A stretch of 64,000 nucleotides of DNA from an uncultured Eggerthellaceae bacterium (GTDB lineage: Bacteria; Actinomycetota; Coriobacteriia; Coriobacteriales; Eggerthellaceae): NCBI GenBank assembly GCA_949840905.1, contig CATKXW010000002.1, positions 62,001-126,000 of the forward strand. Direction: 5' to 3'. Below, piece after piece: positions 2,231-64,000 of the stretch. The translations under genes were made by a program, and so were the position numbers. The first letter of the stretch is position 1, and each line of letters starts with the position of its first letter. The notes below the pieces were generated by a model. That model did not search any database. It had not been told where the DNA came from and saw nothing but the letters and a program-made list of their open reading frames with translations.

Positions 2231-5038
<2,808 letters not shown>

Positions 5039-5083
5039 TGGGACGCAACGGAAACCGCGGGAAGAGATAGGAGGGGAGCGGCC

Positions 5084-6517
5084 ATGGCACGAGGTTCGTC
5101 ATACGGCGAGACGTTGCGCGAAGCGCGTATGCGGAAGGGCATGGACCTTCCGAGCGTCGCGCGACGCTTGCGCGTGCGCGCCGACATCCTCGCCGCCATC
5201 GAAGAGGCGGACTTCGCCGCACTGCCCCCTTCCGGCTACACCCGCAACATGATCAACGCCTATGCGCGCTTGGTGGGAGCCGATCCGCGGGAAGTGTCTT
5301 CGCGCTACCTCGATGAGTTGCACCTGTTCGAGACGGGGCGGACCCGCATGAGCCGGGAGCGAGCTGTGGCAGCTGGTGATCCGATGGCTCACCGAGGCAG
5401 CGCCCACCCCTCTCGCACCATTCGCTCGCGCCCCCCGATGCCCCATCGGCGTCCCACCACCGCCACGCGATCAGCCGCCGAAGGGGCGTCGGGAAGGCCC
5501 GTGCCCTTGCAGCGCGCCCATGCCCCGGCACCCTCGCGCAGCTACAACCTGCCGTCCAACCGCTACCGCGAGCGCTATGGCGCCGAAGGTCGAGAGCCTT
5601 ACGGAGCCGCGAGCCGAGCGCTGCCAGCACCGGATCGGGCCTACGGTGGCTATGACGCTCATATGCCGCAACAGCGATACCCTCAGCGGATGAGCCGCTC
5701 TTACGGAGCGCCCCCCCAACGACCCTATGGGGAGCCCCGCTCCTATGGGCGCGACACCTTGCGCGCCTACGACTCCTACGCGTTCCGCCCAGACGAGCCG
5801 CGCCCCGAGCGCAGCGCGCCCGCTTCCCGCAATCGCGCGCTACCGGCCAGCGAATACGCCACGAGCCCCTATGCGGGCCTCTATTCTCGTCGCGATCATA
5901 GCCAGAAGGCCACCGTGGGCGACGTGGTCGGTGGCAGCATCAACGCTATCATCCAACGACTGCCCCTCGTCATCGGCGTGGTGGTGGTCATCGTGGTCCT
6001 CATCCTCATCGTCTCGTTCATCGGACGGGGAGGAGAGCCAGCACCTGACGAAACGCCCACCATGCCCATCTCCGGCCTCACCGACACCTCCACCCAGAAC
6101 GCCGATGCCTACAACATGAGCGCTACCGAAACAGCGCCCACCAACGCGAAGTTCTCCGTCGAGGTGGCCAGCGGCGGTCGTTCCTGGATGGAGCTGACGG
6201 TGGACGATGCCTCGACGCCCGAGATAGATGGCGTGATGGACGGTCCGATGACCAAGGAGGTGGAGTTCACCGAGTCCATCTCGTTCAGCTGCGGCAACGT
6301 CTCGCCGGTCACCATCAAGCTCGACGGCAAAGAGGTGAAGCCGACGAAGTCCTCTGGAGATGGCGAGTACGTCTACACGGTCACGTTTTCCTCCATCCTG
6401 AGCGAATGGCAGCGGGCCCATCCCACCGCTCCGGGCATCGCTTCGGGCTCCTCTTCGTCTTCTAGCGCCTCCGGTTCCTCCTCTTCGAGCTCTTCCTCGG
6501 CTTCTTCGAGCCGCTAG
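5084..6517 (+). CDS. RodZ-like membrane protein with HTH domain and Tyr/Arg-rich linker
   Basis: A 477-residue protein with RodZ/YmfM architecture. An N-terminal HTH_25 domain (residues ~5-85) is followed by a cytoplasmic linker, one transmembrane helix (residues ~290-315, rich in V and I), and an extracytoplasmic beta domain resembling the RodZ C-terminal DUF4115 region. It ends in a run of Ser residues. RodZ links MreB to the elongation machinery in rod-shaped cells; that role is inferred here. The linker (residues ~95-280) is unusual: dominated by Tyr, Arg, Pro, Gly and Ser with repeated RYG, SYG and PYG units. A strong AGGAGGGG lies 5-12 bp before the ATG. YmfM occupies a similar place in Bacillus. 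Confidence 0.8.
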   Translation: MARGSSYGETLREARMRKGMDLPSVARRLRVRADILAAIEEADFAALPPSGYTRNMINAYARLVGADPREVSSRYLDELHLFETGRTRMSRERAVAAGDPMAHRGSAHPSRTIRSRPPMPHRRPTTATRSAAEGASGRPVPLQRAHAPAPSRSYNLPSNRYRERYGAEGREPYGAASRALPAPDRAYGGYDAHMPQQRYPQRMSRSYGAPPQRPYGEPRSYGRDTLRAYDSYAFRPDEPRPERSAPASRNRALPASEYATSPYAGLYSRRDHSQKATVGDVVGGSINAIIQRLPLVIGVVVVIVVLILIVSFIGRGGEPAPDETPTMPISGLTDTSTQNADAYNMSATETAPTNAKFSVEVASGGRSWMELTVDDASTPEIDGVMDGPMTKEVEFTESISFSCGNVSPVTIKLDGKEVKPTKSSGDGEYVYTVTFSSILSEWQRAHPTAPGIASGSSSSSSASGSSSSSSSSASSSR

Positions 6518-58986: not shown

Positions 58987-60033
58987 TCAGCGAGCCGCAT
59001 GCTTGGGACGCCGCACGCCGCTGCCGTCTTCGGCGCTGCGGACGCCCTCGGCCAGCTTCAGGTCGCGATGGGCCACCGAGACGCGATAGCCCTTCGACTT
59101 CAGGTAGTCGCCGGTCGATTCGGCCAGGGCCACCGAACGGTGCTGACCGCCCGTGCAGCCCACGGCTATGGCCAGCTGTTGCTTGCCCTCGGCCACGTAA
59201 CCGGGCATCAGCACGTCGAGCAGCTCGTCCCAGCGCTTGTTGAACTCGATGGTCTCCTCTCGCAGCATGACGAAATCGCGCACCGGCGCATCGAGACCGG
59301 TCAGCCCGCGTAGGTCGGGATCATAGTAGGGATTCGGCAAGAAGCGCACGTCCATGACCAGGTCGGCATCGAGAGGCGCTCCGTGCTTGAAGCCGAAGGA
59401 GTACACCGTCACCGACAGCCCGCGCCGCTCTGCGCCGGTGGCGAACAGGCTACGGATGGTGGTGCGCAGCTTCTGGGGCAGCATATCGGTGGTGTCGATC
59501 ACGTGATCGGCGCTATCGCGCAGATCCATCAGCAGGTGGCGCTCGCGCTGTATACCCTGGGCGATGGTGGAGCCGTCGGAGCACAACGGATGGCGACGGC
59601 GCGAGGACTTGTAGCGCGAGACCAGCTTGTCGTCATCGGCGTCGAGGAACACCATCTTGTAGTCGATGCCGCGATCCCTCAGAGCCTGCAGCTGATCGAC
59701 CAAGGTGCCGAAGAAATCACGGTTGCGCGCATCGCACACCACGGCCAGCTTGCGCGCTTCATCCTCACCTTGAGCCGCCTCTGCGCCCACGGCCTGCTCG
59801 TTCAGATCGACCAGGTTTCCGATCAGGCTCGACGGCAGATTGTCCACGCAGAAATAGCCTAGATCCTCGAACACGTGCATGGCCTCGGTACGGCCCGCAC
59901 CGCTCATGCCCGTCACGATCACCAAAGGCGGCATGGCCGCTGTGACGTCAACCTCTTCCTCGCTGGCGAAGGCCTCCATATCCTCCGGTGCGCCATAGGC
60001 GTCCCGACGCTTTCCCACGTATCTCTCGCTCAT
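58987..60033 (-). CDS. rapZ: RNase adapter RapZ family protein
   Basis: A 348-residue P-loop protein. Walker A reads GMSGAGRT with Arg where Lys is canonical, a change also seen in other actinobacterial members. DLGYFCVDNLP, SFGFKHGAP and the C-terminal GCTGGQHRSVALAE are typical. In E. coli RapZ binds the sRNA GlmZ and senses glucosamine-6-phosphate; here it more likely connects to YvcK and wall precursor supply. The ~35-residue N-terminal extension is acidic. It overlaps uvrC by four bases (ATGA). Confidence 0.93.
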   Translation of the reverse strand: MSERYVGKRRDAYGAPEDMEAFASEEEVDVTAAMPPLVIVTGMSGAGRTEAMHVFEDLGYFCVDNLPSSLIGNLVDLNEQAVGAEAAQGEDEARKLAVVCDARNRDFFGTLVDQLQALRDRGIDYKMVFLDADDDKLVSRYKSSRRRHPLCSDGSTIAQGIQRERHLLMDLRDSADHVIDTTDMLPQKLRTTIRSLFATGAERRGLSVTVYSFGFKHGAPLDADLVMDVRFLPNPYYDPDLRGLTGLDAPVRDFVMLREETIEFNKRWDELLDVLMPGYVAEGKQQLAIAVGCTGGQHRSVALAESTGDYLKSKGYRVSVAHRDLKLAEGVRSAEDGSGVRRPKHAAR

Positions 60034-62102
60034 GCGCTCTCACCTTCGGATGTCTCATCGGTCACCGGGACCACTGCATGGTCGACGATCTCCGTTCTGC
60101 TCTCCTCATTATACTGCGCCAGCACCCGATGGAGCTCCTCGGCCACCTCGGCAGGCACCACCTTGGCCGCCTTCAGCTCGGCCAAGGTAGCGGCCCGCAG
60201 GTTCTTGAACGACTTGAAGTGCCGCATGAGCGCCTTCTTGCGCACCGGGCCCAAGCCTGCCACGCCATCGAGCACAGACGCGGTCATGCCCTTGCCGCGC
60301 AGCTCGCGATGGAACGTGATAGCGAAGCGGTGGGCCTCATCGCGCACCTGCTTCACCAGATACAGCGAGGCCGAACCGCTCGGCAGCACCACCGGGCCCG
60401 TGTCCTGCCAAGGCACGAACAGCTCCTCGTCGCGCTTGGCGAGACCGGCGATGGCGACATCGTCGATGCCCATCTCTTCGAACATCGCCAGCGCCGCGCT
60501 CAGCTGCGGCTTGCCGCCGTCGAGGATGATGAGGTCGGGCTTGCTGCCGAACCGCTCATCAGCCATGCGCTCGGGGCTATAGCGACGGCGCATGACCTCC
60601 TGCATGCTCAGAAAGTCGTTGGCCTCCTCGAGCTTCGTGCGTATCTTGAAGCGACGGTACTGGTTCTTATCGGGCTTGCCCGCGGTGAACACCACCATGG
60701 ACGCCACGGTGTAGGAGCCATGGATGGTGGAGATGTCGAAGCATTCGATGCGCATCGGAGGCGCGTCGAGGGCCAGCGCGCTCTCCAACTGCAGCAGCGC
60801 CGCGTTGATGCGCTTGTCGTCGTAGTTGGTGCGCACCTTGTAGCGCATGAGGGTGTGCTGGGCGTTGGTCTCGGCCATGGATACCAGCTCGGCCTTCTCC
60901 CCTTTCTGCGGCGCGGTGAAGCGCACCTTGGCCCCATGGGCGCTGTCCAGCTTCTCGGTCAGCCAGCTGGCCATCACCTCCGCATCCTCGGGCACCGCCC
61001 GCACGATCACCTCGTGGGGGATGGAGGTGGTGGTATCGTAATAGCGCAGCAGGAAGTTATGGAGCAGGTCCTGGTCGGGCACATCAGTACCCTTGTTCAG
61101 GATGAACTCGTTGCTGTTGATGATGCGGCCCTCGCGCACCATGAGCACGTGCACGCCGGCCACGGTCTCTTCGCGGAAGAAGCCGATGACGTCTGCATCG
61201 AGGTTACGGGACGACACCGCATGCTGCTTGCTGGCGAGCGAACCGATGGTGTCGATGCGGCTCTTGATACGACCCGCCCGCTCGAAGTCCAGCTCGGCTG
61301 CGGCTGCGGCCATCTCCTCTTGCAGCTCTTCCACGAACTCGCGATGGTTGCCGCCCAAGAACCGCTCGATGCGGCGCACGTGCTCCTCGTATTCCGCAGG
61401 CGTTATCTGACCGCAGCACGCCCCCGGACCCAGGCCCACATGGGCGTCGAAACAGGGCTTGATGGCACCGTCTTTGGTGAGGAACGCATCCAGCGAGAGC
61501 TCGACGCCCTTGTCCTTCGCCTTGGCGAGCCGTCGCTCCAATGCCCGCCAATCGGCGCAGGCCGCCGAGCACAGCGGCACCACGCGCCGAGCGATGTCGA
61601 TCATGCGCCGCGCCGCGCGGCTGTCGGTATAGGGACCGAAGTAGCGCGTGTTCGCCTTGTGTTTCTCGCGCGTGTACTTGATGGCGGGGAACACATCCCC
61701 TTTGGTCAGGGCGATGAACGGGTAGCTCTTATCGTCTTTGTAGTCGGCGTTGAAGAAGGGGTAGTGCTGGTTGATGAGGTTCTTCTCGAGCACGAGGGAT
61801 TCATGCTCGTTGTCCACCACGATGTACTCGAAAGAATGTATCTGCTCCACCAGAAGCGGTATCTTCGCGCGCTCGTCTTGGAAGTTCACGTACTGGCGCA
61901 TGCGCGCCCGCAGCTGCTTCGCCTTGCCGACATAGATGACCTCGCCCTCGGCGTTCTTCCATAGATACACCCCTGGAGCCGCGGGCACCTCGGCGAGCTC
62001 TCGCTTGATGCGCGCGATCTTCTCCTGCTGACTCTCCCCTTCGACCCCTCCTGCTTCTACCGGAGCCGCCTCGAGGACATCATCTGTGCGCTCTTCGCTC
62101 AT
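60030..62102 (-). CDS. uvrC: Excinuclease ABC subunit C
   Basis: A 690-residue dual-incision nuclease of nucleotide excision repair. It has an N-terminal GIY-YIG domain (PGVYLW...EVIYVGKA, residues ~40-115), a cysteine cluster region, a UVR motif (EMAAAAAELDFERAGRIKSRI, near residue 270), the RNase H-like endonuclease domain (ECFDISTIHG, ILDGGKPQL), and C-terminal HhH motifs. The ATG has no ribosome site; a promoter directly abutting it predicts a leaderless mRNA. No LexA box was seen. Confidence 0.96.
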   Translation of the reverse strand: MSEERTDDVLEAAPVEAGGVEGESQQEKIARIKRELAEVPAAPGVYLWKNAEGEVIYVGKAKQLRARMRQYVNFQDERAKIPLLVEQIHSFEYIVVDNEHESLVLEKNLINQHYPFFNADYKDDKSYPFIALTKGDVFPAIKYTREKHKANTRYFGPYTDSRAARRMIDIARRVVPLCSAACADWRALERRLAKAKDKGVELSLDAFLTKDGAIKPCFDAHVGLGPGACCGQITPAEYEEHVRRIERFLGGNHREFVEELQEEMAAAAAELDFERAGRIKSRIDTIGSLASKQHAVSSRNLDADVIGFFREETVAGVHVLMVREGRIINSNEFILNKGTDVPDQDLLHNFLLRYYDTTTSIPHEVIVRAVPEDAEVMASWLTEKLDSAHGAKVRFTAPQKGEKAELVSMAETNAQHTLMRYKVRTNYDDKRINAALLQLESALALDAPPMRIECFDISTIHGSYTVASMVVFTAGKPDKNQYRRFKIRTKLEEANDFLSMQEVMRRRYSPERMADERFGSKPDLIILDGGKPQLSAALAMFEEMGIDDVAIAGLAKRDEELFVPWQDTGPVVLPSGSASLYLVKQVRDEAHRFAITFHRELRGKGMTASVLDGVAGLGPVRKKALMRHFKSFKNLRAATLAELKAAKVVPAEVAEELHRVLAQYNEESRTEIVDHAVVPVTDETSEGESA

Positions 62103-62491: not shown

Positions 62492-64000
62492 TCAGAACCT
62501 CTCGTTCACGAGCCCGGTGAGATCCACTGTGAACACGATGCGGGCGATAGGCTCGCTAGTGACATCAGCGGTGGGCATCGCGAGCACGTCGAAGCCAGGG
62601 AGCAGCTTCATGGCGTAGGTCAAGGGAAGCTCCCCTACCCGCGCGAGATTGCCGAGGGCGTCAGTGGTCACGTCGTCCCCTGCGCTGCCTGCCGCGACGG
62701 GCGTGGCTGCAGGGATCGCGAGGGAGGAACCCGCTTCAGGCGTCCACTTCATGGAAGCTCCGCTCGCGTCATGCAGGGAAAGGAGCGCCTTCGCGGAGGA
62801 GCCCGCCGTCACCTCCACTGCGCACTTATCGGGATTACCCTCCCCAAGGATGCGCGTCGCTGAAAGCGTGTCGTCGGCATCCTTCAGAGCTTCCAGTTCG
62901 ATCGAGGCCACGGGCACCTCTTGAGGAATCGAAGAGCGCAGGGTGCCTGACATGATGGGTCCTGCCTGGGCGCCTGCTGCGTCATCCCCTATGACCGTCG
63001 CACGATCGATGCCCAAGGTCACCGTCCCAGGAGCCGATACCGGTACCTCGAGGTTGGCCATGAGCGTCCAGCAAGCATAGAGGTCGACATCAGATGCATC
63101 CTTCCAGACGGAATCTCTGACGTAGTTCCCGTCCTCGTCGAAGTAGAGCTCTCCTTTGGTGCCGTCCGGGTTCTTGGTCCAATACCCTGAGAAGGCATGG
63201 CCGTATCGCTTGGGAACGGATGCGGAGGGTACCGCCGCATCGAAGGTGACGGCGTGCTCCACCGTATCCCCGAGGCCTCCCTCTCCTGTCCCGTCGTTGG
63301 CATGAAGATGTGCGGTGTAGGGGTTGGCGGAGAAGGAGGCTGCGTATGAGAAGGTCTCCCCATCGTCTTTGCCCTCCAGCATCGAGCTCGTTATCGTGAA
63401 GGACTTCGAGCCTGCCGCTATCCCCGTGCCCGACCAGCCTTGAAAGGTATAGCCCGCATCAGGGGTCGCAGCCATCATCGCTATGGGGCAGTCCTCCACC
63501 GTGAAGTCGCTCGTGCGGTTGGCATGCGTTCCATGGGATGTGCTCCACGAGAGGTGGTAGGTGTTAATGGTCCATTTCGCCTTGGCGGTGAGGTTGCCGT
63601 AGGTGCCCTTCTTCACGGTGACGTTGGTGGTGCCGTTGCCTGTGATGCCGATACCGGATGCTCCTGTCACGTCCCACCTTGCGAAGGCGTAGCCCGTCCT
63701 CGTTCCGGTGGCGGGCAAGGTGAAGTCGGCTGTCTCTACGTTGTACCCGGTCGTCTTGCCAGTGAACGTCCCGCCTCCGTCATCGTAGATTATCGTGTGA
63801 GCAGTAGGCGTCCACCGTGCGTAGAGCGTGGTGTTGGCCGTCTTGTTCCAGGTTCGCGCGCTCGCGCAGGAGGCGGTGTAGTACTGCGCCCCTCCGCTCG
63901 ATGCGCTCGTGTCGTACCAGCCTGCGAAGGTATAGCCTGCACGAACGGGCTTGGTGGTGGAGATGGCCGGCATGGCCGCATCATAGGTGGCGGTAACGTT
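62492..64000 (-). CDS. InlB B-repeat (Flg_new) surface/secreted protein, C-terminal part (partial)
   Basis: The frame is open to the window edge, so only the last ~502 residues are present. Visible are at least four InlB B-type (Listeria-Bacteroides) repeats, each with a GYTFAGWY, GYAFARWD, GYTFQGWS or GHAFSGYWT core and a closing YARW/KAKW-type strand. The last ~190 residues form a different, beta-rich domain (from about MANLEVPVSAPGTV, ending IVFTVDLTGLVNERF) that I recall from other coriobacterial surface proteins. There is no LPxTG motif, transmembrane anchor or SLH domain at the C-terminus. The signal peptide is outside the window. Probably a secreted adhesin-like protein. Confidence 0.85.
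   Translation of the reverse strand, partial: NVTATYDAAMPAISTTKPVRAGYTFAGWYDTSASSGGAQYYTASCASARTWNKTANTTLYARWTPTAHTIIYDDGGGTFTGKTTGYNVETADFTLPATGTRTGYAFARWDVTGASGIGITGNGTTNVTVKKGTYGNLTAKAKWTINTYHLSWSTSHGTHANRTSDFTVEDCPIAMMAATPDAGYTFQGWSGTGIAAGSKSFTITSSMLEGKDDGETFSYAASFSANPYTAHLHANDGTGEGGLGDTVEHAVTFDAAVPSASVPKRYGHAFSGYWTKNPDGTKGELYFDEDGNYVRDSVWKDASDVDLYACWTLMANLEVPVSAPGTVTLGIDRATVIGDDAAGAQAGPIMSGTLRSSIPQEVPVASIELEALKDADDTLSATRILGEGNPDKCAVEVTAGSSAKALLSLHDASGASMKWTPEAGSSLAIPAATPVAAGSAGDDVTTDALGNLARVGELPLTYAMKLLPGFDVLAMPTADVTSEPIARIVFTVDLTGLVNERF

Follow-up and report, generated by a model that had tools for sequence, protein, structure and literature searches.

The closest described counterpart to the protein end considered here is the WxL domain (PF13731) of the large WxL proteins of Bacillota. 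This is a domain of about 160-190 residues, in small and large versions, that ends secreted multi-domain proteins, always lies at the C-terminus and is defined by two conserved W-x-L motifs (PMC9772566). Two further points of reference are the sortase cell-wall sorting signal, which consists of an LPxTG-type motif, a helix and a basic tail, and the InlB B-repeat or Listeria-Bacteroides repeat proteins (PF09479, TIGR02543). The domain that we describe resembles the WxL domain in layout, since it too stands at the end of secreted multi-domain proteins, and it shares its protein body with the InlB B-repeat proteins, but it lies outside all of the repeat models. The sortase signal ends other InlB-repeat proteins of the same family and appears to fill the same place as the domain; the domain proteins, in contrast, lack the succession of motif and helix, and the unit is a whole domain rather than a short signal.

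The gene in question lies at the edge of a window of 64,000 nucleotides (the whole stretch of DNA that was analysed) from an uncultured Eggerthellaceae bacterium. Its open reading frame is genuine and extends past the window edge, with the last 502 residues visible; its source in the assembly is a complete gene for a protein of 1266 residues. This protein, whose sequence begins MVRSSVAAFCERSISLLFALALVVGLMPAAAFA, starts with a typical Sec signal peptide, which is followed by InlB-type repeats and then by a C-terminal domain of 192 residues. The features in the window are these:

62492..64000, minus strand: C-terminal 502 residues of the secreted 1266-residue InlB-repeat protein, whose gene extends past the window edge (G000:C2:124492-128292)
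62495..63070, minus strand: 192-residue C-terminal domain (WTLMANLEVPV ... NERF) of an undescribed family
63818..63991, minus strand: best visible stretch of InlB B / Listeria-Bacteroides repeat (PF09479), residues 4-61 of the visible reading frame
63386..63475, minus strand: divergent InlB repeat (PF18998), below threshold (20.5 against 23.6 bits), residues 176-205 of the visible reading frame
62705..62716, minus strand: IPAA motif within the domain; I-P-x-A is invariant in 19 rows from genus g1
62519..62545, minus strand: final stretch ARIVFTVDL, called as strand; the majority pattern is A-x-L-x-Y-T-V
60030..62102, minus strand: neighbouring UvrC-like reading frame of 690 residues, an ordinary context

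The repeats satisfy the models for InlB B-repeats, with 102 bits for PF09479 against a cut-off of 27 and 105 for TIGR02543 against 20.95. In Pfam, PF09479 matches four stretches of the visible part (2.3e-14) and five stretches over the whole protein (1.9e-29). The original prediction for this gene, an InlB-repeat protein with a C-terminal domain of about 190 residues, is thus borne out by PF09479 matches followed by 192 uncovered residues, as is its observation that the protein ends without LPxTG, SLH or membrane helix (by inspection of the sequence and, for SLH, by Pfam). The downstream neighbours, which we take to be a UvrC-like and a RapZ-like gene, form an ordinary context.

The C-terminal domain is undescribed in Pfam and NCBIfam, where no family covers its 192 residues, and in PHROGs and the PDB sequences, where it has no match (the best E-value of the domain profile against the PDB being 5.5). 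Plasmid sequences contain no relative at E<=0.01, and no publication on the domain was found in the literature searched, a statement that holds for that literature alone. Across 45 aligned copies (profile A9) the domain is 134-225 residues long, and most rows have in common the W closing the preceding repeat, a V-x-V-P step, an S within the strand-like stretch after it, a turn resembling IPAA and, at the end, a stretch of the form A-x-L-x-Y-T-V. Net charge is acidic in all 45 copies, ranging from -1 to -21. The earlier description of the domain as beta-rich is weakly supported: alignment-averaged Chou-Fasman propensities give 19% strand and 8% helix, and the single-sequence AF2 model, with a mean pLDDT of 35.4, is unusable. 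The domain is under purifying selection, dN/dS being 0.16-0.34 for 10 pairs of copies from the window bacterium's own genome and 0.24-0.45 for 21 pairs from G001. It is not uniquely the constant part of its proteins, however, because the N-terminal regions are almost equally conserved (0.39-0.61, against 0.50-0.79 for the domain, in the six pairs formed by four paralogs of the own genome).

A search of the own genome with the domain residues of the window returned 10 places, five of them whole and five cut by contig ends. The profile built from the five whole copies (A2) recovered 17 further copies (E 6.1e-8) in G001, which alone represented the rest of the genus in that draw, and none in the 39 other relatives. 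Profiles were widened stepwise from A2 through A3, A4 and A5 (36 rows) to A9 (45 rows). With the G001 rows added (A3), the search reached two further genera of the same family (G287, 4.6e-6; G299, 7.7e-5), and among the matches listed 4 of 395 genomes of the order were positive. Also among the matches listed, a widened profile found the domain in 6 of 99 family genomes at E<=0.01, the class draw gave 4 positive genomes of 149, and a family draw at E<=1e-3 gave 10 of 129. At most 8, 24, 18 and 29 candidates per genome were scored in the order, class, phylum and family draws, respectively, so that the high counts in the family draw are lower bounds: at least 25 matches in the own genome (G000), at least 29 in G001 and at least 28 in G295, followed by 15 in G287, 8 in G017, 6 in G252, 5 in G310 and one each in G253, G292 and G299. 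Some genomes carry about 25 to 38 copies, mostly as the C-termini of large secreted InlB-repeat proteins. As a control, 20,321 reversed reading frames gave no match, while the real frames produced 122 match lines.

Searches outside the family used profiles A3 and A5. Among the matches listed, 2 of 198 genomes in the phylum draw were positive, one of them (G617) from outside the family; this sequence looks like a different type of membrane protein, and we reject it as a false match. The order, class and phylum draws thus contain, among the matches listed, no true copy outside the window bacterium's family, and as far as sampled the domain is confined to one bacterial family. The domain is not unique to the window protein; uniqueness would have counted against the original prediction. 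The spread among coriobacteria on which that prediction depended is borne out in part: the domain recurs within a single lineage, but its presence in 10 of 129 family genomes shows that coriobacteria do not carry it generally. When seven G001 rows are compared profile to profile with the G287 and G299 rows, the result is significant (Prob 90.6, E 1.3e-6), whereas direct comparison of the window subfamily (A2) with the G287/G299 profile (A6) is not (E 0.053, Prob 1%). The likely homology of these two subfamilies rests on the chain of profiles A2-A3-A4-A5-A9.

Several domain genes lie close together. In G017, two reading frames of 802 residues (L121; G017:C29:162065 and 170385) have equal scores and identical domain sequences and are 8.3 kb apart, through either recent duplication or a repeat in the assembly. 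Domain genes, mostly giant (up to 3157 residues), form clusters with a common orientation at G287:C2:1831-1902 kb and G310:C1:843-887 kb. Contigs C4, C5, C7, C11, C14, C16, C17, C24, C25 and probably C19 of the own genome end inside genes of the family; the repeats probably broke this assembly, so domain copies may be fragmented or overlooked.

With the last profile and the HMMER filters off (--max), 120 reading frames carry the domain in the fetched loci, which omit G252, G253 and some G001 and G295 places. Three are cut by contig ends before the stop; in 111 of the remaining 117 the domain lies 0-24 residues from the stop, and in six it is internal. Eleven of the 120 are shorter than 100 residues, nine being contig-end pieces and two whole short reading frames that are probably remnants. 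By a crude rule, a signal-peptide-like start is present in 51 of the 60 domain reading frames that have a stop at each end, and the nine others include short or truncated ones. On both counts, terminal position and signal-like start, the earlier supposition that the domain ends secreted proteins is supported.

The internal copies comprise one in a 3050-residue reading frame of the own genome (G000:C14; a weak match, 6.8e-5, over 129 of 153 positions), one at G001:C151 and four in G287 (one) and G295 (three); in these last four, another module, 251-259 residues long and ending in PCFC[LF], comes after the domain. In this the domain departs from WxL, which shares the C-terminal position but is presented as always C-terminal (PMC9772566). 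Internal positions had been named beforehand as evidence against a sorting role. They occur in 6 of 117 proteins, so that this objection applies in part, and they argue against a strictly C-terminal sorting signal, which is unlikely; the original prediction is partly supported.

A related question concerns dedicated machinery. Type IX secretion uses C-terminal domains, and the present domain, mostly C-terminal, found in one lineage among the matches listed and carried by many secreted proteins, might similarly direct its proteins to a dedicated machine for export or sorting. We regard this as very improbable, given the internal copies, the presence of Sec-type signal peptides, alignments with no obvious cleavage motif and the occurrence of genomes with a single match, which fit poorly with a dedicated machine.

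Do the domain proteins carry a conventional anchor as well? Among 100 domain reading frames that have a stop and at least 100 residues, a hydrophobic run was flagged once, and the 14 matches to a loose LPxTG-like pattern in no case precede a membrane helix; the combination of motif, helix and basic tail that marks sortase substrates is absent from these 100, and we reject that assignment. SLH anchoring is likewise rejected, as a Pfam scan of six own-genome proteins and 36 domain rows contained no SLH. We also read, frame by frame, the ends of 40 InlB-repeat reading frames taken from part of the matches in 10 genomes other than the own; since they were picked because their ends were not yet known, the resulting ratios are no census. 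Two are cut, which leaves 38. The domain is present in 12 of these (11 terminal and one, L256, internal), 21 end in a membrane helix (accompanied by an LxxTG motif in 12, the helix only in nine) and five have other ends; domain and C-terminal helix occur together in none.

In the own genome, 23 InlB-repeat reading frames are listed, six of them cut by contig ends. The 17 whole ones end in a clear domain copy in 11 cases, in a borderline copy in two (C33, 0.028; C4, 0.048) and in a sequence similar merely by eye in two (C22, C35); the C14 protein has its internal copy and another end, and the C8 protein has a sortase-type end. The latter (L208), an InlB protein of 2843 residues, finishes with LTATG, a membrane helix and RR, the motif being unusual for a sortase-type end. 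Sortase matches above the cut-off are present in 12 of 12 genomes tested, which together with the C8 end indicates that two kinds of C-terminus coexist.

Because the domain occupies the place of an anchor in related proteins, it may represent a new mode of surface holding. Our preferred explanation, put forward tentatively and at somewhat less than even chances, is that it is a sortase-independent surface-retention module. The domain proteins would be exported by the Sec route and their signal peptide removed; the C-terminal domain would then hold the protein on the surface non-covalently, through a wall component or another surface protein, and the repeats and N-terminal parts would extend outwards from the cell. 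In this the domain would act like a WxL domain, though it is not one, and the WxL-like layout may be read as a hint at how it works. Membership in the WxL family itself is rejected on four grounds. Two W-x-L motifs are found in none of the 45 rows of A9; PF13731 is detected in none of 12 genomes at E<=0.1, with a positive Lactococcus lactis control; PF13731 is absent among the families matched by the 36 A5 rows at E<=1; and hhalign of A5 against 10 annotated WxL sequences gives Prob 0.1 and E 0.71. Other marks of WxL proteins are a gene cluster with DUF916/DUF3324 and binding to peptidoglycan; the downstream neighbours of the window gene are the UvrC-like and RapZ-like genes. Two of the 10 real WxL rows are as acidic as the new domain. 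That all copies are acidic weighs slightly against attachment to an anionic wall by simple electrostatics.

The beginning of the domain bears on a different explanation. It usually coincides with the W at which an InlB repeat closes (tlYAxW, then the domain), also in the internal L256 copy, as expected of a structural cap that closes the InlB-repeat stack, shields the C-terminus from proteolysis or nucleates folding, in which case the proteins would simply be secreted or otherwise held. Proteins released in this way would also show no other C-terminal anchor, as is the case here. Against this, the 21 of 38 InlB-repeat reading frames from related genomes with sortase-type or membrane ends are capless, and there is a stand-alone secreted copy without repeats (L244:105-761; a weak match, 6.7e-4). 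We consider the cap unlikely, though it deserves serious attention. The stand-alone protein, at L244:105-743 (G017:C28), is a domain-like protein of 213 residues and lies downstream of an InlB-domain gene.

Gene order in two genomes adds a further element. Genes for domain proteins shorter than 700 residues have, immediately upstream, a gene for a protein with a PCFC[LF] end in 13 of 15 cases in G295 and in 3 of 3 in G287 (16 of 18 together). The arrangement is as follows:

L294-L313 (G295 and G287): two-gene unit with the PCFC[LF] gene upstream, for example L301:1754-4801 followed by 4805-5692

The three partners scanned at full length (L301, L304, L313) all contain LRR_5, and DUF6273 (PF19789) reached the Pfam cut-off in one of five scanned proteins with a PCFC/FFCF end. 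DUF6273 is the C-terminal module of a G287 partner that also holds an internal domain copy; it is a different domain and merely a neighbour of the new one. Elsewhere, a PCFC-type neighbour accompanies one of 10 longer or 5'-cut domain reading frames in G017, and none of 25 C-terminal domain reading frames in the own genome, of 37 in G001, of five in G310 or of the single ones in G292 and G299, where the upstream DNA is often short. The position of short domain genes directly behind a DUF6273-type gene in two genomes suggests that the domain may also act as the retaining subunit in a complex of two proteins.

Short domain proteins at L294, L298, L301, L305, L310, L312 and L313 contain, a little downstream of their signal peptide, an LGIRVTDSS-like motif, often in tandem, in a region with no Pfam match in the two proteins scanned. 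The DUF6273-type paralogs vary before PCFCL. A diversity-generating retroelement behind these variable partner ends was considered and rejected: third codon positions vary too, and one G287 and one G295 partner copy share PSNNGSASAPGG, so no signature of such an element was seen.

The same pairs are what one would expect of an adhesive or assembly module that binds host, glycan or a sister subunit and builds fibres or complexes rather than anchoring to the wall. At least 25 copies in each of three genomes, the 16 of 18 short proteins behind a PCFC[LF]-type gene and the four PCFC-type partners that themselves hold an internal domain copy all agree with such a role. The near-fixed terminal place and the lack of any other C-terminal anchor, on the other hand, suit retention better than a host-facing function, and we consider an adhesive or assembly role rather unlikely.

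Taken together, recurrence, near-terminal position, signal-like starts, purifying selection and the lack of a co-occurring sortase-type or membrane C-terminus speak for surface retention. The internal copies, the non-significant A2-A6 comparison, the nearly equal conservation of the N-terminal regions and the near-restriction of the PCFC-type pairs to two genomes speak against it. A structural cap or an adhesive tip would give most of the same pattern, and the two-gene units are compatible with both retention and assembly; the cap and the assembly or adhesive module are therefore serious rivals. A broader version of surface retention is possible but doubtful: a family-specific, sortase-independent display in which large proteins would be held by their own domain, short InlB-domain proteins would hold the LRR/DUF6273-type partner encoded upstream, and one kind of module would display dozens of repeat proteins per cell.

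Even as a mere cap or assembly part, this would be a recurrent domain that Pfam and NCBIfam lack. If surface retention is correct, the domain is a small, testable module, more than 110 reading frames could count as surface-displayed, and the display of dozens of giant repeat proteins without a recognised anchor would be explained.
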